Origin: Verrucomicrobiaceae bacterium
Lineage (GTDB): Bacteria > Verrucomicrobiota > Verrucomicrobiia > Verrucomicrobiales > Verrucomicrobiaceae
Direction: 5' to 3'
DNA length: 64,000 nucleotides
Assembly (NCBI GenBank): GCA_947458455.1
Contig: CANGYJ010000002.1
Location: forward strand, 372,001 to 436,000
Part shown: in pieces, positions 6,749 to 59,556 of the stretch
Numbering within the stretch: position 1 is the stretch's first letter
How the letters are laid out: each line of letters starts with the position of its first letter
Program-made: the position numbers and the translations under genes
Notes under the pieces: model-generated
What the model saw: only the letters and a program-made list of their open reading frames with translations
Told to the model about the DNA's origin: nothing
Databases searched by the model: none

Positions 6749-8266
6749 TTACTGCCGCGTCGGTTTCGCGACGATCTTGTCCATCTTCGCGATCATCGTT
6801 TTCAGTCGCTCGGGCTGCTCGGCGCTGAGGTCTTTGAGCTCGGCGGGATCATCCGGCAGATGGTAAAGGCGGTGCAGCGGGGCCTGGCTTTCATCGCGGG
6901 TCTTCATCGTGACCACGGCCTGGGATTTGCCCTTCGATTTCATCCGCACGAGCTTCCACTCGCCCATGCGCAGGCCGAGGTTGTTGCCGTTGTTGTCTTG
7001 CTGAAGTAGCGAATCGCGGCCTTTGGCACCTTTTTCGCCTAGAAGAGCCGGGAGGATGTTTTGGCTGTCGAGGCAGGCGTTTTCAGCGAGAGGAGTCTCG
7101 GTCAAAGCGGCAAAGCTGGCGGCAAGATCGACGGTGCAGACGACTTCATCGGAGATGCCGGGCTGAATGCGAGAAGGCCAGGTGGCGATGAACGGCGTGC
7201 GCGTGCCGCCTTCATAAACGCTGTATTTGCCGCCGCTAAAGGGGCCGGCAGGCGTATGGGAGCCGAGTTGGGTCACCGCGCCATCCACATAGCCGTCGTC
7301 GAGCACCGGACCGTTGTCGGAGCAAAGCACGATGAGAGTGTTGTCGGCCAGTTTGAGGCGTTCGAGCGTCTTCACGATCTCACCGACGCTCCAGTCGAAC
7401 TCGACGATGGCGTCACCACGGTAGCCGAGCGTGGTTTTGCCCTGAAAACGCTCGTGCGGCATGCGCGGTACATGGATGTCGTGGCTGGCGAAGTAGAGGA
7501 AAAAGGGCTCTTTCGCATGGGCTTCAATCCAGCGGTTCGTTTCGTTGATCCAAGCATCGCCGAGGTCCTCATCGCGGAAGCGTGCTGCCTTTCCGCCAGT
7601 GTAGAAACCGATGCGGCCGATGCCGTTGTGGATGCTTTGGTTGTGCCCATGCGTCCAGTTCATGCGCAGCGTGTCGCGATGCGTGATGCCGGTGGGATGG
7701 TTTTCATCCGGGGCCTTGTCACCCACCCACAGCGGGTCCTTGGGGTCGAGATTTCGCACGCGATGATCATCCACATAGACCTGCGGCACGCGGTCGTTCG
7801 TGGTGGGCAGCAGCAGGCAGTGATCAAAACCGATCTCCAACGGGCCGGGCTTCAAATCGCCGTTCCAGTCTGGTTTTGGATCGCCGAGGCCGAGATGCCA
7901 TTTGCCAATCACTGCCGTGGCATAGCCTGCTTTCTTCAAAATGGAGGCGATGGTCTCCGTGCCTGATTTGATCAAGGCGGGACCATTCGGTGGAGCCACG
8001 CCAGTGCCTTTTTGACGAAACGCGAACGTGCCGGTGAGCAGGGAAAACCGTGTCGGCGTGCAGGTGGAAGCCGAACAGTAGCCACTGGTGAAGCGCAGAC
8101 CTTTCGCGGCCAGTTGGTCGATGTTCGGCGTCTGCACGGACTTCGCCCCGTAGCATCCCAGATCGCCGTAACCGAGGTCATCGGCCATGATGACGATGAT
8201 GTTGGGCTTTGCCGCGAAGAGCGAAGGGCAAAGCGCGAAGAGTAGAACGGCAAGGAATCGAGTCAT
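6749..8266 (-). CDS. Secreted sulfatase (CTPTR type)
   Basis: A 505-residue family S1 sulfatase with a signal peptide (about residues 1-18, ending LFA). The metal-binding start of the fold is NIIVIMADDLGYGD. The formylglycine signature is C69-T-P-T-R followed by LLTG, matching CxPxR, so Cys69 should be converted to formylglycine. Further family blocks are VIGKWHLG, SDNGPV and GGTRTPFIA. The enzyme probably removes sulfate esters from an external polysaccharide or glycan; the exact substrate cannot be read from sequence. It is divergent from a second sulfatase with only 46 bp between starts. No sulfatase-maturing enzyme is present in the window. Confidence 0.9.
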   Translation of the reverse strand: MTRFLAVLLFALCPSLFAAKPNIIVIMADDLGYGDLGCYGAKSVQTPNIDQLAAKGLRFTSGYCSASTCTPTRFSLLTGTFAFRQKGTGVAPPNGPALIKSGTETIASILKKAGYATAVIGKWHLGLGDPKPDWNGDLKPGPLEIGFDHCLLLPTTNDRVPQVYVDDHRVRNLDPKDPLWVGDKAPDENHPTGITHRDTLRMNWTHGHNQSIHNGIGRIGFYTGGKAARFRDEDLGDAWINETNRWIEAHAKEPFFLYFASHDIHVPRMPHERFQGKTTLGYRGDAIVEFDWSVGEIVKTLERLKLADNTLIVLCSDNGPVLDDGYVDGAVTQLGSHTPAGPFSGGKYSVYEGGTRTPFIATWPSRIQPGISDEVVCTVDLAASFAALTETPLAENACLDSQNILPALLGEKGAKGRDSLLQQDNNGNNLGLRMGEWKLVRMKSKGKSQAVVTMKTRDESQAPLHRLYHLPDDPAELKDLSAEQPERLKTMIAKMDKIVAKPTRQ

Positions 8267-8312
8267 GGCTTGCAAACGAGCCGTGGATCGGCGGCATTGC
8301 GAGGAAGTTTTG

Positions 8313-9935
8313 ATGCAGGCTCGCGTTGCCAGTGCTGCCATGCGTTTGCTGCTTTTCCTCTTTGCCCTCTGCCCTTCGCTCTTGGCGTCCCAGCCGAACT
8401 TCCTGCTGGTCATGGTCGATGACATGGGCTTCTCCGATCTCGGCTGCTACGGCAGCGAGATCGAGACACCCAATCTCGACAAACTCGCCGCCAACGGCCT
8501 GCGATTTTCGCAGTTCTACAACACGGCGAAGTGCCATTCATCCCGCGTGAGCCTGCTCAGCGGCCGCTGGTGCCGCCAGGCAGGTGACACGGCGTTGAGT
8601 CGTGCAGTCATCATCCCCGAGGTGCTCGCAACGGCTGGCTACTTCACGGCGATGACGGGCAAATGGCATCTCAGCAAAGAACCCACGAATTTCGGCTTCC
8701 AGCGCTACTTCGGCCATCTCTCCGGTGCCACGAACTACTACCTCGGCGACAAGACCTTCCGCCTGAACGGCCAGCCCTTCACCGTTCCCGACAAAGGCTT
8801 CTACACCACCATCGCCAATGTCGATCACGCGTTGAAATTCATCGCTGAAGCTCGTGCCGCGAAGAAGCCGTGGTTTCAATACATCGCCTTCAATGCTCCT
8901 CATGCGCCGCTTCAGCCGCTGGAGCAGGATTTCAAAAAGTACCTCGGTCGTTACGACGCTGGCTGGGATGTCATCCGCGCCGCTCGTGTCGCCAAACAGA
9001 AGCAAATCGGCCTGCTGCCTGCCGACAGCGCCGAATCGCCACGCCCCGAGCACATTCCCGAGTGGTCGAAGCTCAACGACGAGCAACGCAGCGAGGAAAC
9101 TCGACTCATGACGGCTTATGCGGGCCTTATTGACCGTATTGACCAGGAAATGGGGCGTCTTATCGCCGACCTCGAACAAGCAGGCGAACTCGACAACACC
9201 GTCATCCTCTTCGTTTCCGACAACGGTGCGTGCCCCTTCCATCGCGGCGGCGCCACGCCGAACACCGAGCCGCACGATCCCAAAACGCACTGGGGAGATA
9301 GCACTGGCTGGGCCTGGGCGCGGAATTCGCCCTTTCGCTTCTATAAACAGAACCAGTTCGAAGGCGGCATCTCCTCGCCAGCCGTGCTGCATTGGCCAGC
9401 GGGCTTGAAGCAGAAGCCTGGCAGCGTCGTCAGCAGCCCCGCGCACCTTGTCGATGTGCTGCCCACCTTTGCCGAACTCGCCGGAGCGAAAGTGCCCGCG
9501 ACCTTCCCCGACCGCGAACCCACGCCGCTCGCCGGCGTTTCGCTCGCCCCCATCCTCGCGGGTAGTGAAATCAAAGCCCGTCCGCCCATTCACCTGCTAT
9601 TTTCCACGGATCGCGGCCTGCGGGATGGCGAATGGAAGCTCGTCAGCTTTCAAAGCCAGCCCTGGGAGCTCTACCACATGCCCGACGACCGTGCCGAGCT
9701 CCATGATGTGGCCGCCCAGCATCCCGAAATCGTCCAGCGCCTGTCCAAACAATGGCACGACATGGCCGCGAACGTCCTCGTGACCAAGGGCAAGGAAGGC
9801 CAGCCCGTGTCCTCCGAGGCCACGCCGAAGTTCAATCCGAGCTGGTCGGCCTATGGCGATGCTTTACCCGGCCAAAAGAAGCCCAGGGGCAAAGGCAAAA
9901 AGATGGCCGCGAAGGCGGCGGGAAGTCCACCTTGA
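8313..9935 (+). CDS. Secreted sulfatase with atypical CHSSR active-site motif
   Basis: A 540-residue S1 sulfatase. ATG 8313 was chosen because it is preceded by GAGGAAG five bases upstream, one of the few clear Shine-Dalgarno sequences here; ATG 8340 is an alternative. A signal peptide ends near SLLA. Sulfatase blocks are FLLVMVDDMGFSD, MTGKWHLS, FVSDNGACP and GGISSPAVLHWP. The active-site motif reads C74-H-S-S-R, with Ser in place of the Pro of CxPxR. It may form a distinct subfamily or be poorly matured. The C-terminus is a Lys/Gly/Ala-rich tail. It shares a 46-bp divergent promoter region with the other sulfatase. Confidence 0.87.
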   Translation: MQARVASAAMRLLLFLFALCPSLLASQPNFLLVMVDDMGFSDLGCYGSEIETPNLDKLAANGLRFSQFYNTAKCHSSRVSLLSGRWCRQAGDTALSRAVIIPEVLATAGYFTAMTGKWHLSKEPTNFGFQRYFGHLSGATNYYLGDKTFRLNGQPFTVPDKGFYTTIANVDHALKFIAEARAAKKPWFQYIAFNAPHAPLQPLEQDFKKYLGRYDAGWDVIRAARVAKQKQIGLLPADSAESPRPEHIPEWSKLNDEQRSEETRLMTAYAGLIDRIDQEMGRLIADLEQAGELDNTVILFVSDNGACPFHRGGATPNTEPHDPKTHWGDSTGWAWARNSPFRFYKQNQFEGGISSPAVLHWPAGLKQKPGSVVSSPAHLVDVLPTFAELAGAKVPATFPDREPTPLAGVSLAPILAGSEIKARPPIHLLFSTDRGLRDGEWKLVSFQSQPWELYHMPDDRAELHDVAAQHPEIVQRLSKQWHDMAANVLVTKGKEGQPVSSEATPKFNPSWSAYGDALPGQKKPRGKGKKMAAKAAGSPP

Positions 9936-12889: not shown

Positions 12890-12997
12890 AAAATGACGAA
12901 ATCCGAATGACGAATGCCGAATGGGCCTCACAAGGCGTCATTCGGCATTTGTGCTTCGTCATTCATTCGTCATTCTGGTTTCGTCCTTCGTCATTTT
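12890..12997. repeat. Inverted word repeat (ATGACGAATG family)
   Basis: The left arm starts AAAATGACGAA and ends ATGCCGAATG; the right arm, read as reverse complement, starts and ends with the same words and has extra GACGAATGA units between. It begins four bases after the yidC stop and could form the 3' end of its mRNA. Half-words of the same family appear at 40430-40455 and 51626-51652. Confidence 0.75.
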
Positions 12998-36109: not shown

Positions 36110-36265
36110 CAGAAATGAGGAACCACGGAAAACACAGAATACACGGAAGGATCAGGCCCATTTCTGATCATGCTCTCTCACCTTTTGAATGAGTCTGGTG
36201 AAGTGGTCACTTCCCTTCTTTTCCGTGTATTCAGTGTATTCCGTGGTCAGTCATTCCCGTTTCTG
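36110..36265. repeat. Inverted word repeat (ACACGGAATACACGGAA family)
   Basis: The left arm (36110-36150) and the right arm (36216-36265) pair over about 45 bases with few mismatches. Both carry CAGAAA at the outer end, ACCACGGAA and a tandem GAATACACGGAA word. About 65 bases lie between the arms. It fills the gap between the YkgJ-type gene and punA, which holds no gene. Confidence 0.8.
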
Positions 36266-40170: not shown

Positions 40171-40417
40171 GCCGATGAACGGCGTCCTGGAAGGACGCGA
40201 GCCATTAGCCGGTGGTGAAACCACCGGTTCAAGCGGCAGCACCCTGATCTCCTCCCGCCGCGCTCCGGCAGGAGCGCGAGAAGCGTGCGGCGACTCCACG
40301 TCACCGTCCTCCGCCCGCCCCTCGCGCCCCTCCAGGGCGCAGCCTTCCCCCACGATGGGTAGTCATCGTGATCCGGTGGTTTCACCACCGGCTAATCTCT
40401 CTCGTGCCTCCGGCACG
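40171..40417. repeat. Hairpin-cluster repeat element before groES
   Basis: A 24-bp perfect inverted repeat (40204-40227 and 40373-40396) has arms that are themselves hairpins (CCGGTGGT-GAA-ACCACCGG). Between and around them are hairpins GCCG/CGGC (40171-40183), GCGTCC/GGACGC, CGCGCTCC/GGAGCGCG (40259-40278), GCGCCC/GGGCGC and CGTGCC/GGCACG (40403-40417). The gap 40115-40584 contains no real gene; its open frames only reflect the repeat. The remaining 160 bases before groES are A/C-rich and carry the groES leader. Similar clusters are, as I recall, widespread in Verrucomicrobia and Planctomycetes. Confidence 0.8.
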
Positions 40418-40584
40418 CCCCGATTCTGAATTCGTCATTCGGATTTCGACATTCCCTCCCTCACTCCCCTTTCCCCCAACAATTCCGACCGACCACCGCC
40501 CCCGTTCACAAACACTCTCGTGGCAGGGCCGGGAGTCGGTCAGACAAACAAACACAACCAACCCAAACACACCCAGCACATACT

Positions 40585-52593: not shown

Positions 52594-54501
52594 ATGCCTC
52601 CCGCCGACGCCCAATCCCCAGGCCAGTTCCTTCCCACGATCCTGCTGCTGCTGCCGTTTTTCTCGGCGCTCATCATTTTGCTGGGTCATCGGGCCTTGAA
52701 AAACGCCAGCGTGCTCATCTCGGTGGGTTCCTCTGTCATCTGCTTCCTCGCCAGCCTCGCGCTGCTCGCCACCAAGGGTGCTGAAGGCACCGTGAGCATC
52801 CTTCCTTTCATCGACGTGCCGGGCTTCCAGGCCGGGATCGATGCCATGATCGACGATCAAAGCCGCGGCATGATGTTCATCGTGACCTTCATCGGCATGC
52901 TCGTGCACATCTTCTCGCTGGGCTACATGAAGGACGACGAGGCCAAGCCGCGCTTCTTCGGTTCGCTGTCTCTGTTCATGTTCTCCATGACCGGCATCGT
53001 GCTGGCGGGGAATCTGGTGATGATGTTCATCTACTGGGAACTCGTCGGTCTGAGCTCCTACCTGCTCATCGGTCACTGGTATCAGAAGGCCAGTGCCGCC
53101 GAGGCCTGCAAAAAAGCCTTCCTCACGAACCGAATTGGCGACTTTGGCTTCATGATCGGGATTTTGATCCTCTTCGGCCTGAACAAGGGCGATCTGAACA
53201 TCGACAACCTTCGCGACGCCTTTGTGACCGGCGGCCCATTGGCTGAGGTGCTGAAAAACAATCCCGGCATCATCACCGTCGCCGCGCTGTGCCTCTTCAT
53301 GGGGGCCGTTGGCAAATCGGCGCAGTTTCCGCTGCATGTCTGGCTGCCGGACGCGATGGAAGGCCCCACGCCGGTTTCCGCGCTCATCCACGCCGCCACG
53401 ATGGTGGCTGCGGGCGTCTACATGCTCGTCCGGGTGAGCTTTGTGATCGTCACACCGCTGGCTGCCGAGACCATTGCAGGCATCGGCTGTTTCACCGCGC
53501 TGCTCGCGGCGCTGATGGCCACCCAGCAGGGCGATATCAAACGCATCCTGGCCTACTCCACGCTCAGCCAGCTCGGCTACATGGTCATGGCCGTCGGCGC
53601 TGTCTCGATGGCCGCCATTGATGGTCACGCCGCGCACGGTGCCCATCCCGGCCACCCGGCGATGTTCCACCTTTATACGCATGCTTTCTTCAAGGCGATG
53701 CTCTTCCTCGGCTCCGGTGCCGTCATCTACGCCTGCCACCATGAGCAGGACATCTGGAAAATGGGCGGCCTGCGCAAGCACATGCCGATCACCTTTTGGA
53801 CCTTCGCCATCGGCACTGCCGCCCTCATGGGTGTGCCGCCGCTGAGCGGTTTCTGGAGCAAGGAAGCCGTCCTCGGTGCCGCCTTCGACAGCGGCTGCCG
53901 CGTGCTCTTCATCGCCGGTGCCGCTACCGCCGCGCTGACCGCCTTTTACATGACGCGACTGCTCGTCGTGGCCTTCTTCGGCAAAGCCCGCACCGAATCC
54001 GCGCACCACGCCGTCGAAGTGCCGCTCGTCATGGCGCTGCCTCTGGCCCTCCTGGCCATCTTTTCGATCTTCTCTGCTTGGGGGCCTTTCTCCGACTTCC
54101 TCCAGGCGATGAAACCTGAGCATGTCGAAGGTCACGATACCGTCCTGTGGACCTCCGTTGCCGTGCTGCTCATCGGCTCCATCAGCTCCTTTCTGCTCTA
54201 CAAGGGCAAGGATGCCGACCCGATCCGCATCAAGCTCTTCGCCAACAAATTCTACTTCGACGAGATCTACGCCGTCATCGTCCGCGAGTGCCAGGATCGT
54301 CTGGCATGGTTCGTGACCGGCATTGAGCGCATTTTTGTCGATGGCCTCGTCGCCCGACTTCCAGCGGCCATCGTGGCCCGCATCGGCTCGGCCACCCGCA
54401 TGCTCCAGGGCGGGCATCTGCAAGGTTACACCTTCCTGCTGGGCGGCGGCATCATCGCCGTGGTTTATCTCGTCGTGTTTGTGCTGCCCCGCACCCATTG
54501 A
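52594..54501 (+). CDS. nuoL: NADH-quinone oxidoreductase subunit L
   Basis: A 635-residue antiporter-like subunit with about 15 membrane helices. Hallmarks are MIYWELVGLSSYLLIGHWYQK with the conserved Glu, QFPLHVWLPDAMEGPTPVSALIHAATMVAAGVYMLVR and AYSTLSQLGYMVMAVG. The C-terminal region (from about 540) contains the lateral helix that ties the proton-pumping subunits together. The gene begins 24 bases after nuoK without a Shine-Dalgarno sequence and is followed by nuoM after 12 bases. Confidence 0.97.
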   Translation: MPPADAQSPGQFLPTILLLLPFFSALIILLGHRALKNASVLISVGSSVICFLASLALLATKGAEGTVSILPFIDVPGFQAGIDAMIDDQSRGMMFIVTFIGMLVHIFSLGYMKDDEAKPRFFGSLSLFMFSMTGIVLAGNLVMMFIYWELVGLSSYLLIGHWYQKASAAEACKKAFLTNRIGDFGFMIGILILFGLNKGDLNIDNLRDAFVTGGPLAEVLKNNPGIITVAALCLFMGAVGKSAQFPLHVWLPDAMEGPTPVSALIHAATMVAAGVYMLVRVSFVIVTPLAAETIAGIGCFTALLAALMATQQGDIKRILAYSTLSQLGYMVMAVGAVSMAAIDGHAAHGAHPGHPAMFHLYTHAFFKAMLFLGSGAVIYACHHEQDIWKMGGLRKHMPITFWTFAIGTAALMGVPPLSGFWSKEAVLGAAFDSGCRVLFIAGAATAALTAFYMTRLLVVAFFGKARTESAHHAVEVPLVMALPLALLAIFSIFSAWGPFSDFLQAMKPEHVEGHDTVLWTSVAVLLIGSISSFLLYKGKDADPIRIKLFANKFYFDEIYAVIVRECQDRLAWFVTGIERIFVDGLVARLPAAIVARIGSATRMLQGGHLQGYTFLLGGGIIAVVYLVVFVLPRTH

Positions 54502-54513
54502 TCCCATCTCCGA

Positions 54514-55986
54514 ATGAGCGTTCTCGAAATCGTCATCCTGCTCCCGATCCTCGCCGCTCTCGCGGTGCTGTTCGGAGCGCCTGCCCGTGCCGCCTCCGTC
54601 GGAGCCACGCTGGCGAATCTGGTCATCGTGCTGGCCCTGAGCTGGCAATACGCCGCCAAAGGCAGCACCGGCCTCGCCTTCACCCAGGCTCGTGAAGTCC
54701 TCGCCAATCCCGCGATCAGCTTTTCCGTCGGCGCGGATGGTGTCTCGCTTATTTTGGCACTTTTGACCGCCATCGTGATGTTTGCGGCCGTCTGGCAGAT
54801 CCAGGACCGCCCGGCCATTTTCTACGTCGCCTCGCTTTTGATCGGCGGCGGCGCGTTGGGAGCCTTCCTGACAACCGATGTTTTCTTCATCTACGCCTTC
54901 CACGAGCTGGCGCTCATTCCGACCTTCCTCATGATCGCCCTCCACGGCCACGCGGAGCCGATCGAGCGCAAAAAAGTCGCCTGGAAAGCCACGGTGTATC
55001 TCGGCGTCGGCAGTTTGGTGCTGCTCGCGGGCCTTGTGTGGCTCGTCGTCGAGTTCAGCGGCGGTCGCGATCTCACCTTCGACCTCGAAGCCCTTCGTGC
55101 GCAGGCCAAGCTGACCCCGCTGCCGGTCGAAAAGCAGGGCGTAATCTTCTTTGTGCTGCTGCTCGGCTTTGGCACCCTCGTCAGTCTCTTCCCCTTCCAT
55201 AGCTGGGCCGCTCCCGCCTATGCCACCGCGCCCACACCCGTCGCCATGCTGCATGCGGGCGTGCTGAAGAAATTCGGTCTCTACGGCCTGCTGCGCATCG
55301 CTCTGCCACTGCTGCCGCAGGGCGCGAATGTCCCCTGGGTGCAAAACGCGCTGCTCCTGATGCTCTTGGGCAATATCCTCGTTATGGGGCTCGTCACCAT
55401 CCGTGCCAGCCGCCTCGACGACACGCTTGCCAACTCCAGCGTGATGCACATGGGCTACATCTTCCTCGCCCTCGCCGCAGGCAGCGAGATCGCCCTCAAA
55501 GGCGCGGTGCTTCTGATGTTTGCGCACGGCGTGTCCATCGCGCTGCTCTTTGCCCTGTCTGGCAAGATGCGCAACCAACTCGGCACCCTCGAATACAGCA
55601 AGCTTGGCGGTCTCGCCTCTCACGCACCGGCCTTCACCGTGCTGTTTGCCTTTGGGGCCTTCGCCAGCATCGGCCTGCCGGGCCTCAGCAACTTCGCGGG
55701 CGAGGCCATGGTCTTCGCCGGCAGCTTCACCACCTTCAGCGGCACGCTCACGAACCTGCACTGGACTGTCATCCTCGCCCTGTGGGGCGTCGTGATGAGC
55801 GCCGTCTATATGCTCCGCGCCTACCGCCACATCTTCCACGGCAGCGCCACCACCGGCCTCTTCATGAGCGACCCCGCCCTGCCGCAGCGCCTTCCCCTCA
55901 TCCTCATGGCCGCCACCCTCCTGCTCACCGGCTGCTGCCCCTGGCTGCTGCTGAATTTGCTGAAGGGTGCTCTGGCGGCCTCCTAA
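54514..55986 (+). CDS. nuoM: NADH-quinone oxidoreductase subunit M
   Basis: A 490-residue antiporter-like subunit with about 13-14 membrane helices. Hallmarks are FFIYAFHELALIPTFLMIALHG with the conserved Glu, LVSLFPFHSWAAPAYATAPTPVAMLHAGVLKKFGLYGLLRIALPLL and SSVMHMGYIFLALAAGS. It belongs to the proton-pumping arm of complex I. The stop is followed after four bases by the left arm of a 30-bp perfect inverted repeat, which separates it from nuoN. Confidence 0.97.
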   Translation: MSVLEIVILLPILAALAVLFGAPARAASVGATLANLVIVLALSWQYAAKGSTGLAFTQAREVLANPAISFSVGADGVSLILALLTAIVMFAAVWQIQDRPAIFYVASLLIGGGALGAFLTTDVFFIYAFHELALIPTFLMIALHGHAEPIERKKVAWKATVYLGVGSLVLLAGLVWLVVEFSGGRDLTFDLEALRAQAKLTPLPVEKQGVIFFVLLLGFGTLVSLFPFHSWAAPAYATAPTPVAMLHAGVLKKFGLYGLLRIALPLLPQGANVPWVQNALLLMLLGNILVMGLVTIRASRLDDTLANSSVMHMGYIFLALAAGSEIALKGAVLLMFAHGVSIALLFALSGKMRNQLGTLEYSKLGGLASHAPAFTVLFAFGAFASIGLPGLSNFAGEAMVFAGSFTTFSGTLTNLHWTVILALWGVVMSAVYMLRAYRHIFHGSATTGLFMSDPALPQRLPLILMAATLLLTGCCPWLLLNLLKGALAAS

Positions 55987-55990
55987 ATCC

Positions 55991-56193
55991 TCCTCGTCCT
56001 CCTACTCGAACTCGTCCTCGTTTCTCCCGCTCCGCCGCCCCAGAACCACAGAAGTCAGAAATCAGAGCCGCAGATCGCCTAGCGCCCCATTTTCATTTTT
56101 CAGTTTCCAATTCTCAATTTTCAGTCCCGCGCCCCCGAAACACCTCTTCCCAGCCGATTTGATCGAGGACGAGTTCGAGTAGGAGGACGAGGA
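55991..56193. repeat. 30-bp perfect inverted repeat flanking 143 bp, between nuoM and nuoN
   Basis: The arms at 55991-56020 and 56164-56193 are exact reverse complements over 30 bases. They are built of the word CTCGTCCT-like units (TCCTCGTCCTCCTACTCGAA and so on). The 143 bases between contain further repeated words, among them CAGAA/CAGA units and a stretch of TTTTCAGTTTCCAATTCTCAATTTTCAG-like words. The gap 55987-56246 holds no gene. Confidence 0.9.
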
Positions 56194-56246
56194 CGACAAA
56201 AAGCCTCCCCGATCTCTTAGCTCTTCGCCCTTTGCCATTCGCCCCG

Positions 56247-57710
56247 ATGTCCGTCTTCACCCTCGAAGCCAGCCTCGCCCTTCTCGGCCTCGTCCTCCTC
56301 TTGCTGGAGGCCTTTAAGCCGGAGATCTCCCGCCGCACGCTCGGCTACACAGCCATGGCCGGCACCGCGCTCGCGCTCGTGCTGCTGCCCCTTTGCGGCA
56401 CGCAGCTTCCCGAGTTCATGCAGCCCTGGCACCAGATCGATACCCTGGCGCTCTTTTACAAAGGCTTCGCCCTCGTCATCACGCTGCTCGTGCTTTGGCT
56501 CACGCTTGAGTGCGCCCCCTACCTTACGCGTTTCACGCTCGATGGAAAACTCGCCGAGATGTTCAGCCTGCCGCTCATCGTCTGCGCTGGCATGATGTGG
56601 ATGGCCTCCGCCCGCGACCTTGTCACGATCTTCATCACGCTCGAACTCGTCACCATCAGCTTCTACGTCCTCGTCGCCTTTGCCCGCAAAAGCGCCCTCA
56701 GCCTCGAAGCCGGCGTGAAATACCTCATCCTCGGCGCTTTGAGCACCGGCGTGCTCGTTTATGGCATTGCCTGGATCTACGGTGCCACCGGCAGCATGAA
56801 TTTCGACGCCATCGGCAAGGCACTCGCCAATCCCGCCACCAGCAAATCCGCCGCGCTCTTCGGCGCCGCCATGCTGCTCGTCGGCCTCGGCTTCAAGGTC
56901 GCCGCCGCACCCTTCCACATGTGGGTGCCGGATGTGTATCAAGGTGCGCCCACCCCGGTGACCACCTTCCTCTCCGTCGGATCCAAGGCCGCCGGCTTCG
57001 TCGTCCTCACCCGCGCTCTCGATGCCTTCGCCGCCCCCGGTTCCATCATCGGCAGCGAGGTGCAGAGCCTCCTGCTCGTCGGCGGCTCGCTCACCGTCCT
57101 GCTCGGCAGCCTGCCCGCCATCTTCCAGACCAGCGTGAAGCGCCTGCTCGCCTATTCCAGCATCAGCCACGCCGGCTACCTGCTCCTCGCGCTCGCCTGT
57201 GGCAGCGGCGGCCGCTTCGACATCGGCAGCAACGGCATCGTCGCCTTCTACCTCGCCACCTACCTGCCCATGACCGTACTCGGCTTCCTCGCGCTCGGCC
57301 TCATGCGTGTGAACGGCCAGGGCGAGGACCTTGGCGACTTCCAGGGTCTCGCCAAACGCTCGCCGCTCCTCGCGCTCGTCATCACCATCGCCTTCGCCAG
57401 CCTCGCCGGCCTGCCGCTCACTGCTGGCTTCATCGGCAAGATGTTCGTCTTCCTCAGCCTCGTCGATCACGGCTACTGGGGAGCCCTGACCTGCGCCGTC
57501 ATCGCCGCCGCCGCCGGGTTCTACTACTACTTCCGCATCATCCTGGCGATGTACACCACCGAAGGCAGCGAAAAGCCCGCCCTCACCCTCACTCCGCTCA
57601 CCAAAGCCATCGCCTGCGGCCTCGCCCTCGTGATCCTCGCCCTCGGCGTCTATCCCCGCCCCCTGCAAAAGGTTCTCACGCCTCCCGCAGCCGCTGTCGT
57701 GGTGAAGTGA
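56247..57710 (+). CDS. nuoN: NADH-quinone oxidoreductase subunit N
   Basis: A 487-residue antiporter-like subunit with about 14 membrane helices. Hallmarks are TIFITLELVTISFYVLVAFARK with the conserved Glu, GLGFKVAAAPFHMWVPDVYQGAPTPVTTFLSVGSKAAGFVVL, AYSSISHAGYLLLAL and FASLAGLPLTAGFIGKMFVF. ATG 56247 was chosen; a TTG at 56232 is possible. It is the last gene of the cluster; a TTCC-loop hairpin lies 12 bases after the stop. The gap from nuoM, filled by a repeat, is far larger than other gaps in the operon. Confidence 0.96.
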   Translation: MSVFTLEASLALLGLVLLLLEAFKPEISRRTLGYTAMAGTALALVLLPLCGTQLPEFMQPWHQIDTLALFYKGFALVITLLVLWLTLECAPYLTRFTLDGKLAEMFSLPLIVCAGMMWMASARDLVTIFITLELVTISFYVLVAFARKSALSLEAGVKYLILGALSTGVLVYGIAWIYGATGSMNFDAIGKALANPATSKSAALFGAAMLLVGLGFKVAAAPFHMWVPDVYQGAPTPVTTFLSVGSKAAGFVVLTRALDAFAAPGSIIGSEVQSLLLVGGSLTVLLGSLPAIFQTSVKRLLAYSSISHAGYLLLALACGSGGRFDIGSNGIVAFYLATYLPMTVLGFLALGLMRVNGQGEDLGDFQGLAKRSPLLALVITIAFASLAGLPLTAGFIGKMFVFLSLVDHGYWGALTCAVIAAAAGFYYYFRIILAMYTTEGSEKPALTLTPLTKAIACGLALVILALGVYPRPLQKVLTPPAAAVVVK

Positions 57711-57722
57711 TCCCGGAACGTG

Positions 57723-57744
57723 GAACAGGTTTTCCAACCTGTTC
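57723..57744 (+). repeat. TTCC-loop hairpin after nuoN
   Basis: Arms GAACAGGTT and AACCTGTTC pair perfectly around a TTCC loop, the counterpart of 42561-42582. The two stem positions that differ are changed on both sides (GA/TC against AG/CT). The rest of the 145-bp gap up to ilvD holds no gene. Confidence 0.75.
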
Positions 57745-57855
57745 ATGCCGCGAAGATCTGACGGACTTAATTTCTGAGAGCCGATCTAGCTCGAGTTCAT
57801 CTTCGAGGACAAAAGGGTCTCACCTATCACCTCGGGCAGAGGCACTTCCAGGACG

Positions 57856-59556
57856 CTACGGCGTGATCTGGAGTGACGGGGGGCGTGAGAGCGTCCACTT
57901 CGGTACGCAACCTTCATGAGCCTGCGAAACGGTGGCGGCGAAATCGGCGAGGTAGCCGAAGGGATGCGAAACTTCGACGACTTCGGCTTTTCGAGCTTCG
58001 AGATCGGCTTTGACCTCGATGGTGCCTTTCAGCAGGTCGAATTCGATTTCGTCGTCGTCCTGCACTTTGGCGATGGGGCCGCCCAAAACGGCCTCCGGGG
58101 TGCAATGCACGCCTACCGCACCGGCGGAGACTCCGGAGACGCGGCCATCGGTGATGAGCGCGACTTTACCATACAGTTCCGGCACAGCGAGCGCGGCGCT
58201 GGCGACGTGCATTTCCGGCATGCCGAGTGCCACGGGGCCGCTGCCGCGGATGAGAACGATGTGGCCGGGCTTGATGCGGCCTTGCGCGGCGGCTTCAAAG
58301 ACGCCTTTGCTGTCGTTGAAGCAGATGGCACGGCCGCTGAAGCGCGGCTCTTTGAGGGAGGACACTTTGAAGACCATGCCGTGCGGCGCGAGGTTGCCAA
58401 AACACACCTGGATGTCGGCATAGTCTTTGAAAGGCTGGTCGTGCGGGGCGATGAGGGCGTTTGGAAAGGGCACCGCTTTGGCGCTGGCGAGATTTTCGGC
58501 CAAAGTGCGGCCGGTGACGGTCAGGCACGAGCCGTCGAACAGTCCGGCATCAAGGATGTGCTTCAAAAGCATCGTGGTGCCGCCGAGGCGGTGCAGATCG
58601 ACCATGGTGCCGCGTCCGCGTGGCGCGAAGCTGCACAGCACTGGCACTTTGCGGCAGATGGCCTGCACATCGCGCAGCGTGAAGTCCACACCAGCCTCGC
58701 GGGCGACGGCGAGGAGGTGGATGACGCCGTTCGTGCTGCCGCCGATGGCGGCGATGGCCGTCATGGCATTCGTGAGCGACTGCTTGGTGATGATATCACG
58801 CGGGCGGATGTTCTTTTCGAGAAGGTTCCGCACGGCTTTGCCGACGCGGAGGCATTCCTCACGCTTTCCGGCCTCGATGGCCGGCATGGACGAGGTGTCT
58901 GGCAGACTCAGACCCATCGCTTCGAGCGTGATGCCCCAGGTATTAAAAGAAGCCGCGATGCCGCAGCCGCCGGGCCCCGGGCAGGCGGTGCGGATGATCT
59001 GCTCGCTCTCGTCCCAGCTCATCGTGCCCTGCGCTTCCTTCGCGGCGGCGTCATAGACATCGAGGATGCTCGTCGCCTGACCTTTATGGCAGCCGGGCAT
59101 GATGCTGCCGCCATTGACGATGAGGCCGGGGAAGTTCGTGCGTGCCAACGCCATCGCGAAGGCCGGCCCGTTCTTGTCACAATGATGCAGGCCGATGATC
59201 GCATCGTAGCTGTGTGCGGTGCAAATCATCTCCGCGCCATTGGCCATGAGGTTGCGCGAGCAAAGCGAAGCTGCACCGCCGATGTTGCCCTGGGTGATAT
59301 TGTCACTAACCGGCGAGACGCCGAAGGGAAAGCCGATCATTCCTGCCTCGGCGCAGCCTTGCGCGAGGAGCCTCGCCAGCTCGTGCGCGCGCACGTTACA
59401 GATATTGCCATCCAGTAGCGGCGTGCCGATACCGATTTGCGCCCTGTCGAAGTCTTCCTCTTTGAAGCCTAGCCCCCAGTAGAAAGCCGTGATGCCGCGC
59501 TGCCAGCCACGGGTGACGTTGCGCGAGTTCCAGTTGAGGGATTTTTGGTCTGCCAT
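57856..59556 (-). CDS. ilvD: IlvD/Edd-family dehydratase, probable dihydroxy-acid dehydratase
   Basis: A 566-residue Fe-S dehydratase. Cys53 (DGNICNVRAHE), Cys126 (HHCDKNGP, with the conserved Asp-Lys) and Cys198 (CPGPGGCGIAASFNT) match the three cluster ligands of dihydroxy-acid dehydratase by spacing. The C-terminal block GRVSGVSAGAVGVHCTPEAVLGGPIA holds the catalytic-region Ser. The CGGMYTANT motif of typical IlvD reads CGIAASFNT, so a related sugar-acid dehydratase is possible. IlvD makes the keto acids for valine and isoleucine. The last 18 residues look like read-through into intergenic sequence. ATG 59556 begins the conserved protein. Confidence 0.78.
   Translation of the reverse strand: MADQKSLNWNSRNVTRGWQRGITAFYWGLGFKEEDFDRAQIGIGTPLLDGNICNVRAHELARLLAQGCAEAGMIGFPFGVSPVSDNITQGNIGGAASLCSRNLMANGAEMICTAHSYDAIIGLHHCDKNGPAFAMALARTNFPGLIVNGGSIMPGCHKGQATSILDVYDAAAKEAQGTMSWDESEQIIRTACPGPGGCGIAASFNTWGITLEAMGLSLPDTSSMPAIEAGKREECLRVGKAVRNLLEKNIRPRDIITKQSLTNAMTAIAAIGGSTNGVIHLLAVAREAGVDFTLRDVQAICRKVPVLCSFAPRGRGTMVDLHRLGGTTMLLKHILDAGLFDGSCLTVTGRTLAENLASAKAVPFPNALIAPHDQPFKDYADIQVCFGNLAPHGMVFKVSSLKEPRFSGRAICFNDSKGVFEAAAQGRIKPGHIVLIRGSGPVALGMPEMHVASAALAVPELYGKVALITDGRVSGVSAGAVGVHCTPEAVLGGPIAKVQDDDEIEFDLLKGTIEVKADLEARKAEVVEVSHPFGYLADFAATVSQAHEGCVPKWTLSRPPSLQITP

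Follow-up and report, generated by a model that had tools for sequence, protein, structure and literature searches.

Judged from sequence comparison, the spacer between nuoM and nuoN in a Prosthecobacter-like genome (5.35 Mb, 28 contigs) holds a real, recent, gene-less insertion. We assign a probability of roughly 0.7 to the reading that this unit belongs to a family of small intergenic elements, as a non-autonomous copy that carries no gene, and that its gene-bearing relative codes for an S23/IVP protein. The insertion is of interest mainly because it brings to light how strongly S23/IVP genes are associated with inverted short-period arrays. Proteins of PF05635/TIGR02436 are found across many environmental bacteria and their structures have been solved, but descriptions still give their function as unknown, and to our knowledge the origin of short degenerate tandem arrays (e.g. 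cyanobacterial STRR) is unsettled. The association of IVP genes with inverted arrays joins these two questions and makes both testable.

Within the window, the whole 64,000-nt stretch of DNA analysed, the region is laid out as follows:

54514-55986, plus strand: nuoM, the upstream gene
55991-56020, minus strand: left arm, a degenerate hexamer array reading CGAGGACGAGTTCGAGTAGGAGGACGAGGA on the minus strand, with its outer end 4 nt past the nuoM stop
56021-56163, no strand: loop of 143 nt between the arms, with no gene called by the gene caller used
56049-56067, plus strand: short heptamer-like text CAGAAGTCAGAAATCAGAG in the loop, judged by eye
56088-56128, plus strand: degenerate heptamer array in the loop, TTTTCAT TTTTCAG TTTCCAA TTCTCAA TTTTCAG (z 12.8)
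56164-56193, plus strand: right arm, a hexamer array as in the left arm, with the full unit GATCGAGGACGAGTTCGAGTAGGAGGACGAGGACGA at 56161-56196
56211-56245, plus strand: second, weak heptamer-like stretch between the right arm and nuoN, TTAGCTC TTCGCCC TTTGCCA TTCGCCC
56247-57710, plus strand: the downstream gene, which we take to be nuoN from the initial annotation and its sequence

The nuoM stop (55986) and the nuoN ATG (56247) leave a spacer of 260 nt, whereas the remaining nuo joins comprise a 4-nt overlap (J-K), 24 nt (K-L) and 12 nt (L-M), in agreement with the disparity described in the initial annotation (260 bp against at most 24 bp). The arms are exact reverse complements of 30 nt each, 143 nt apart, at the coordinates given there, and grow to 33 nt (55988-56020/56164-56196) when one mismatch is allowed; when the window was simulated 30 times with a first-order Markov model, exact inverted repeats within 300 nt reached at most 11-15 nt. 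The CTCGTCCT-like words that had been noticed in the arms are present, although they are properly GAGNNN hexamers read on the opposite strand. Text similar to the loop heptamers CAGAAGTCAGAAATCAGAG adjoins a hexamer arm at three further loci (L118, L116 and L112), and the loop array at 56088-56128 matches the arms bracketing another IVP gene (L375 in G013; hit 56087-56117). When compared with the arms flanking L349, an IVP gene of G016, the stretch at 56211-56245 reached a z of 2.7, no better than the best shuffle. Named relatives of NuoM, with 94-96% identity over the whole protein, come from Verrucomicrobiaceae and Prosthecobacter MAGs.

That the arms mark an insertion inside the nuo operon, as first annotated, is borne out across the genus: the insert is absent from all 28 other genomes in which both flanks were placed, and a site empty in every placed relative indicates a recent insertion. 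Flank placement, here and at the other sites described below, took only genomes with the locus (30, 30, 30 and 21 used). The three closest relatives, whose flanks are 86-94% identical, have 12 nt from stop to start (TCTCGTCCTTCC), and this spacer itself resembles an arm. A plain spacer is unlikely, since gap length is not conserved among relatives and a genome-wide search recovered further copies of the arm. The insert spans about 250 nt and exceeds the 203-nt arm-to-arm unit, which counts against the reading as a gene-less element.

The spacer RNA is predicted to form a single long stem (-83 kcal/mol, z -5.0 against shuffles), and the initial annotation had proposed that such a hairpin could attenuate transcription. 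An attenuator or terminator selected for its effect on the operon would fit a 30-bp perfect stem and a transcript that folds better than shuffles. However, no terminator-like site (a short-loop GC stem with a T-run) was found in 55900-56320, no T-run follows the stem, and there was no Rfam match at E<=1 across 54000-58500, so that attenuation is unsupported by the sequence. The site is also empty in the other genomes placed, and a matching element occurs at unrelated genes. We therefore regard selection as an attenuator as very unlikely, and the association of IVP genes with arrays would make this operon insertion something tolerated, not something designed to regulate.

The arm belongs to a dispersed repeat with the unit GATC(GAGNNN)nGAT, in which an invariant GAG is joined to a variable triplet (GAC, TTC, TAG, AAC and others) and length changes from copy to copy in steps of a whole hexamer. 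A 27-mer core, GAGGACGAGTTCGAGTAGGAGGACGAG, has 23 matches in the host genome at up to three mismatches, 12 of them exact, versus none for the reversed pattern; the regular expression GA[GC]NNN in at least four units proved too loose (7 hits in 400 kb versus 5 reversed) and was kept out of the counts. Of 35 genus members examined, 22 have matches to the 27-mer, often letter-identical, and the 21 genomes from other genera have none; the lone match in G025 looks coding. According to our own gene caller, retrained on known genes, 22 of the 23 host copies are intergenic, the exception being the right arm on contig C3, which overlaps the C-terminal frame of an IVP gene. In 22 of 23 copies a gene boundary is found no more than 77 nt from the GACGA end, compared with 2 of 23 for the GATC end (3 of 23 counting the overlap with the IVP frame). 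Four pairs of arms are less than 600 nt apart, with their GATC ends facing each other. The arms of a fifth pair, 2.3 kb apart on C4, are opposite in orientation and enclose a 704-aa ORF, presumably mnmG/gidA.

Repeats that are dispersed, intergenic and at times paired in inverted orientation resemble REPIN/BIME, in which a pair of REP sequences is mobilised by a RAYT (Y1) transposase, a suspected trans-acting protein being a further likeness. The host genome has 12 Y1_Tnp matches, including several RAYT-like or IS200-type transposase genes, and one study reports REP families in the verrucomicrobium Opitutus terrae (PMC3733652). However, a REP has its own stem-loop, whereas a single arm unit here folds no better than shuffles (z -0.7 and +0.3) and is a period-6 array; the gene that such arms bracket carries PF05635. 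Furthermore, no GAGNNN array of at least four units was found in the 11 regions (L145-L155) covering the 12 Y1_Tnp matches. REP/RAYT membership was rejected as unsupported, given an arm unit without a stem and no array beside the Y1_Tnp matches, and a REPIN origin appears highly improbable.

Other insertion sites also differ between species. The arm pair on C15 is absent from all 18 genomes placed. At the C1 site, with 18 other genomes placed, several are empty and G031 has a single array, while in G032 and G004 the site holds inverted hexamers of other words (GAGGAG/GAGTAA), paired across loops of 28 and 26 nt. G008 holds an inverted pair, seen by eye, whose arms differ by one hexamer, and G015, G033 and G005 have heptamer arrays of the TTCGTCA type. 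Arm and loop text at the left of the nuoM-nuoN insert, 140-150 nt together, are 71-76% identical to loci in G029, G016, G011 and G009 that carry another copy of the arm, and composite stretches have thus apparently been copied. By eye, no clear target-site duplication was found at the nuoM-nuoN, C15, C1 or moxR-DUF58 junctions. A different small inverted element, approximately GCCGAAAAA...TTTTTCGGC, occupies site C1 in G027 (L214) and the moxR-DUF58 junction in G004, G030 and G031 (L411, L418 and L416); its presence at junctions that hold hexamer elements in other species suggests preferred sites.

A gene-bearing relative of the nuoM-nuoN unit was found in the same genome. The arm pair at C3:56924-57454, with arms of the nuoM-nuoN type, encloses a 152-aa ORF that matches PF05635 (23S_rRNA_IVP; 44 bits, cut-off 33.8) and TIGR02436 (four helix bundle protein). 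Cognate IVP homologues with 63-100% identity are present in 12 of 48 genus genomes including the host, and all 12 genes sit between moxR and a DUF58 gene, bracketed by GAGNNN-type arms with a score of at least 15 (at L297, which scores 32, a second IVP stretch also lies between the arms). A cognate gene found at one place in 12 genomes indicates that this copy has not recently moved. Among 17 other genomes placed at this junction, the IVP element is present in 9, the site is empty in 4 with a projected gap of 48 nt, the different small inverted pair is seen in 3, and G012 has a truncated IVP start. A genus-wide dispersed repeat, empty sites and arms bracketing a gene elsewhere in the genome together support the small mobile element that had been offered as a second possibility for the hairpin.

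Terminal inverted arms, gene-less copies and sites empty in relatives are likewise expected of an ordinary MITE, a short non-autonomous derivative of a DDE-type insertion sequence for which the arms would serve as terminal inverted repeats. Nevertheless, the heads-inward pairs examined enclose no transposase, their sole gene being the PF05635 gene for a four-helix bundle protein, and the ends are degenerate short-period arrays without a clear target duplication by eye. A MITE of this kind is therefore quite unlikely.

The cognate gene and the scattered repeat tend to occur together. Matches to the 27-mer are present in all 10 genomes with a cognate gene (at least 63% identity) versus 12 of the 25 without one (one-sided hypergeometric 0.0035 over the 35 genomes, treated as unrelated). 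Among these twelve genomes with matches and no cognate gene detected, G004 and G025 need 2-3 mismatches to match. In G008, the IVP gene and the gene-less C1 pair have arms with variant words in common. However, the gene arms of G008, G015 and G023 are of the GAGGAG/GAGGAA type, whereas the GAC-type 27-mer matches 13, 10 and 19 times, respectively, in these genomes, so that gene and scattered copies are not always in agreement. Over ten moxR-DUF58 elements, similarity of the left arm to its own right arm is 0.87 versus 0.71 to the right arms of other species (p 0.0004, kinship uncorrected); the two arms may be rewritten together, as if one were copied from the other. The element in G001 has unlike arms.

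In order to determine how general this arrangement is, PF05635 genes were scored for bracketing, defined as an inverted repeat scoring at least 15 within 450 nt. The host genome has nine such genes over the cut-off, seven of which are bracketed by inverted arrays, each different in sequence; the other two (L285 and L287) have no bracket at this threshold. All 20 genus genomes searched contain PF05635 genes over the cut-off, 91 in total. One at a contig end (G006:C322) was left out, 90 were scored, and excluding 6 with a flank shorter than 300 nt gave 84; 11 hits below the cut-off and loci L391-L398 also stand outside this count. Of these 84 genes, 60 (71%) are bracketed, 45 with a score of at least 18, and 24 are not. 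By comparison, 2.9% of 1647 combinations with right flanks swapped between genus loci are bracketed, as are 1 of 300 ordinary genes of the host genome (0 of 106 small ones). When loci are grouped by shared flanks, 25 of the 34 clusters are bracketed in at least half of their members, and so are 13 of the 20 singletons. The best period in the 60 bracketing arms is 7 in 35, 8 in 8, 6 in 8, 10 in 5 and another value in 4.

The association extends beyond the genus. In the phylum, 37 of 59 genomes contain PF05635 over the cut-off; for its other genera, taking the best hit per genome (29 loci, 1 clipped), 12 of 28 are bracketed and 16 are not, versus 6 of 785 with swapped flanks. Of 25 matched records from named plasmids, 17 were scored (fifteen cyanobacterial, one Riemerella and one Azospirillum), leaving out the near-duplicate-looking H2, H4, H5, H9 and H19 as well as H21, H23 and H25. 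Here 13 of 17 score at least 15 and 16 at least 11, compared with 12 of 639 swapped flanks at 15; the 13 are cyanobacterial plus the one from Azospirillum, and Riemerella and Picosynechococcus score 14. For example, TAGGGAG heptamers in Nostoc edaphicum bracket an IVP gene that has a ribonucleotide reductase gene on either side, and AAGCTAA heptamers on a Pseudanabaena plasmid (L437, score 24) surround one between cas6 and cas4. On the Picosynechococcus plasmid (L436, score 14), an IVP gene with array ends has cas10 on one side and a gene of the cmr3 family on the other. A figure legend in PMC10910872 that relates to CRISPR likewise names IVP. One IVP query found no match in phages.

Arm sequence loosely tracks IVP protein subfamily. 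For 1831 pairs of bracketed genes without shared flanks, arm similarity and protein similarity correlate modestly (Spearman 0.28; maximum of 999 permutations 0.117). Of the 16 pairs with a normalised protein score of at least 0.6, half exceed an arm similarity of 0.6, versus at most 1% of pairs in each protein-score class below 0.45. These observations bear on whether the arrays are passive short tandem repeats, shaped by slippage and gene conversion, in or between which IVP genes merely lodge or are tolerated. Consistent with this, arrays change by whole units, one arm can be replaced alone (G001), in G008, G015 and G023 the arms of the gene are of another type than the scattered copies, and local homology to the already arm-like TCTCGTCCTTCC of the relatives could have guided copying. 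However, slippage by itself leaves unexplained the inverted pairing around one gene family, the tendency of arm class to go with protein subfamily at unrelated sites, and an exact 27-mer common to many species. Passive repeats are accordingly an unlikely account.

The predicted structure of the IVP protein (AlphaFold, mean pLDDT 66, used for fold alone) is a bundle of four long helices. Foldseek matches this model to S23 (2gsc, 2rld) and to Avd, an accessory protein of diversity-generating retroelements (4dwl, 8ub7), at a probability of 1.00, although E is only 0.01-0.12 (0.05 and 0.12 for the two Avd entries); this suggests a fold in common with Avd, and the sequence profile matches 2gsc at E 1e-4. 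We know of no catalytic site or role for IVP/S23 proteins. On the reading of a small mobile element, the protein would recognise its cognate array, as DNA or RNA, and might aid the spread of copies in trans together with a host or other enzyme; for such array specificity, the evidence is the arm-protein correlation. Once transcribed, the 30-bp stem would form dsRNA that RNase III could cut, by analogy with the S23-encoding intervening sequence of Coxiella. Such a cut would separate the nuoM and nuoN mRNAs rather than end transcription, and the element could thereby be tolerated within the operon at little cost.

Alternatively, the arrays could be RNA sites through which the IVP protein autoregulates its gene, the scattered copies being targets of a regulon rather than mobile DNA. 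The arms do adjoin gene boundaries, and proteins of the IVP fold work in ribonucleoproteins (DGR Avd). Against this, close relatives have gained or lost sites, the genes next to the sites are unrelated, and twelve genomes have 27-mer matches with no cognate gene detected. We find a regulon rather improbable.

Among known systems, the closest parallel to the mobile element proposed here is the 23S rRNA intervening sequence (IVS) of Coxiella, Leptospira and others, in which an S23/IVP ORF lies within an inverted stem, as it does in the moxR-DUF58 element. According to PMC4990558, the S23 ORF of Coxiella sits in an intervening sequence of 23S rRNA that has heptameric repeats ahead of the ORF and is excised by RNase III, and the inverted repeats and mobile origin of such sequences had been under discussion earlier; likewise, PMC11270868 reports PF05635 in rRNA insertions of CPR bacteria. 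While those sequences lie in an rRNA gene, the elements described here occupy operons and intergenic DNA (nuoM-nuoN, moxR-DUF58), have degenerate short-period arms and leave gene-less copies scattered genome-wide. The nuoM-nuoN unit in particular lacks the ORF of an S23-carrying IVS, and its excision by RNase III is predicted from the 30-bp stem by analogy. It would be best filed as IVS-like in its working, although it lies outside the definition of an IVS (not being in rRNA) and outside that of a REP.

More tentatively, and with less than even confidence, we propose that S23/IVP proteins are specificity factors of widespread minimal mobile elements ending in inverted 6- to 11-mer arrays, and that the scattered short tandem repeats of verrucomicrobia, cyanobacteria and others are gene-less copies or remnants of these. 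Their arms would be copied from each other, possibly via RNA excised by RNase III and reverse-transcribed, a route that kinship with DGR Avd would allow. This suggests a possible job for the S23/IVP protein of the gene-bearing members and a possible origin for puzzling short bacterial repeats. STRR are tandem arrays of a heptamer unit, and Vioque is said to have described them in 1997 within an RNase P RNA gene. Both the hexamer arm and the loop heptamers share with STRR the character of degenerate short-unit tandem arrays, dispersed and intergenic; this is a likeness by description rather than by published STRR consensus sequence, and the unit is a 7-mer in STRR and a 6-mer in the arm. In contrast to the tandem arrays described as STRR, the heptamers of the cyanobacterial plasmids form inverted pairs around IVP genes. 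Dispersed short repeats in cyanobacteria (PMC2408588) and heptamer arrays in Beggiatoaceae (PMC4679880) are already known. Among open-licence PMC papers, we found none that ties inverted periodic arrays to PF05635/S23 genes located elsewhere than in rRNA.

Several arm types have gene-less copies between genes, the heptamers in the nuoM-nuoN loop among them. Twenty inverted repeats from the window and 400 kb of C1 were compared with IVP arm classes, leaving out one of the 16 from C1 (225861, which overlaps another); six reached a z of at least 8, two a z of 4.7, and twelve fell below 3. The six are:

C1:51139: inverted repeat
C1:52207: inverted repeat
C1:377631: inverted repeat that falls inside a predicted gene
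window 8213-8387: inverted pair whose arms CGCGAAGAGCGAAGGGCAAAGCGCGAAGAG consist of 7-mer words and match those of the G016 IVP gene L349 (z 8.8)
window 12895-12985: intergenic inverted pair GACGAAATCCGAATGACGAATG, of the class of the arms of host IVP gene C4:282435 (L293, z 8.3)
window 55991: the nuoM-nuoN inverted repeat

Matches to the arms of the host IVP genes in 464 kb, with those to the reversed pattern in parentheses, number 9 (0) for L288, 8 (0) for L293, 6 (2) for L291, 6 (1) for the hexamer arm, 3 (1) for L286, 1 (0) for L289 and 0 (0) for L290. Two further inverted repeats of the window show no such match. An inverted pair at 36122-36247 consists of 9-mer-like text (ACCACGGAAAACACAGAATACACGGAA) without a matching IVP arm class (z 1.4), and an imperfect inverted repeat of 51 nt at 40181-40419, with a loop of 137 and an inner palindrome CCGGTGGTGAAACCACCGG, looks REP-like and fails to match the IVP arms.
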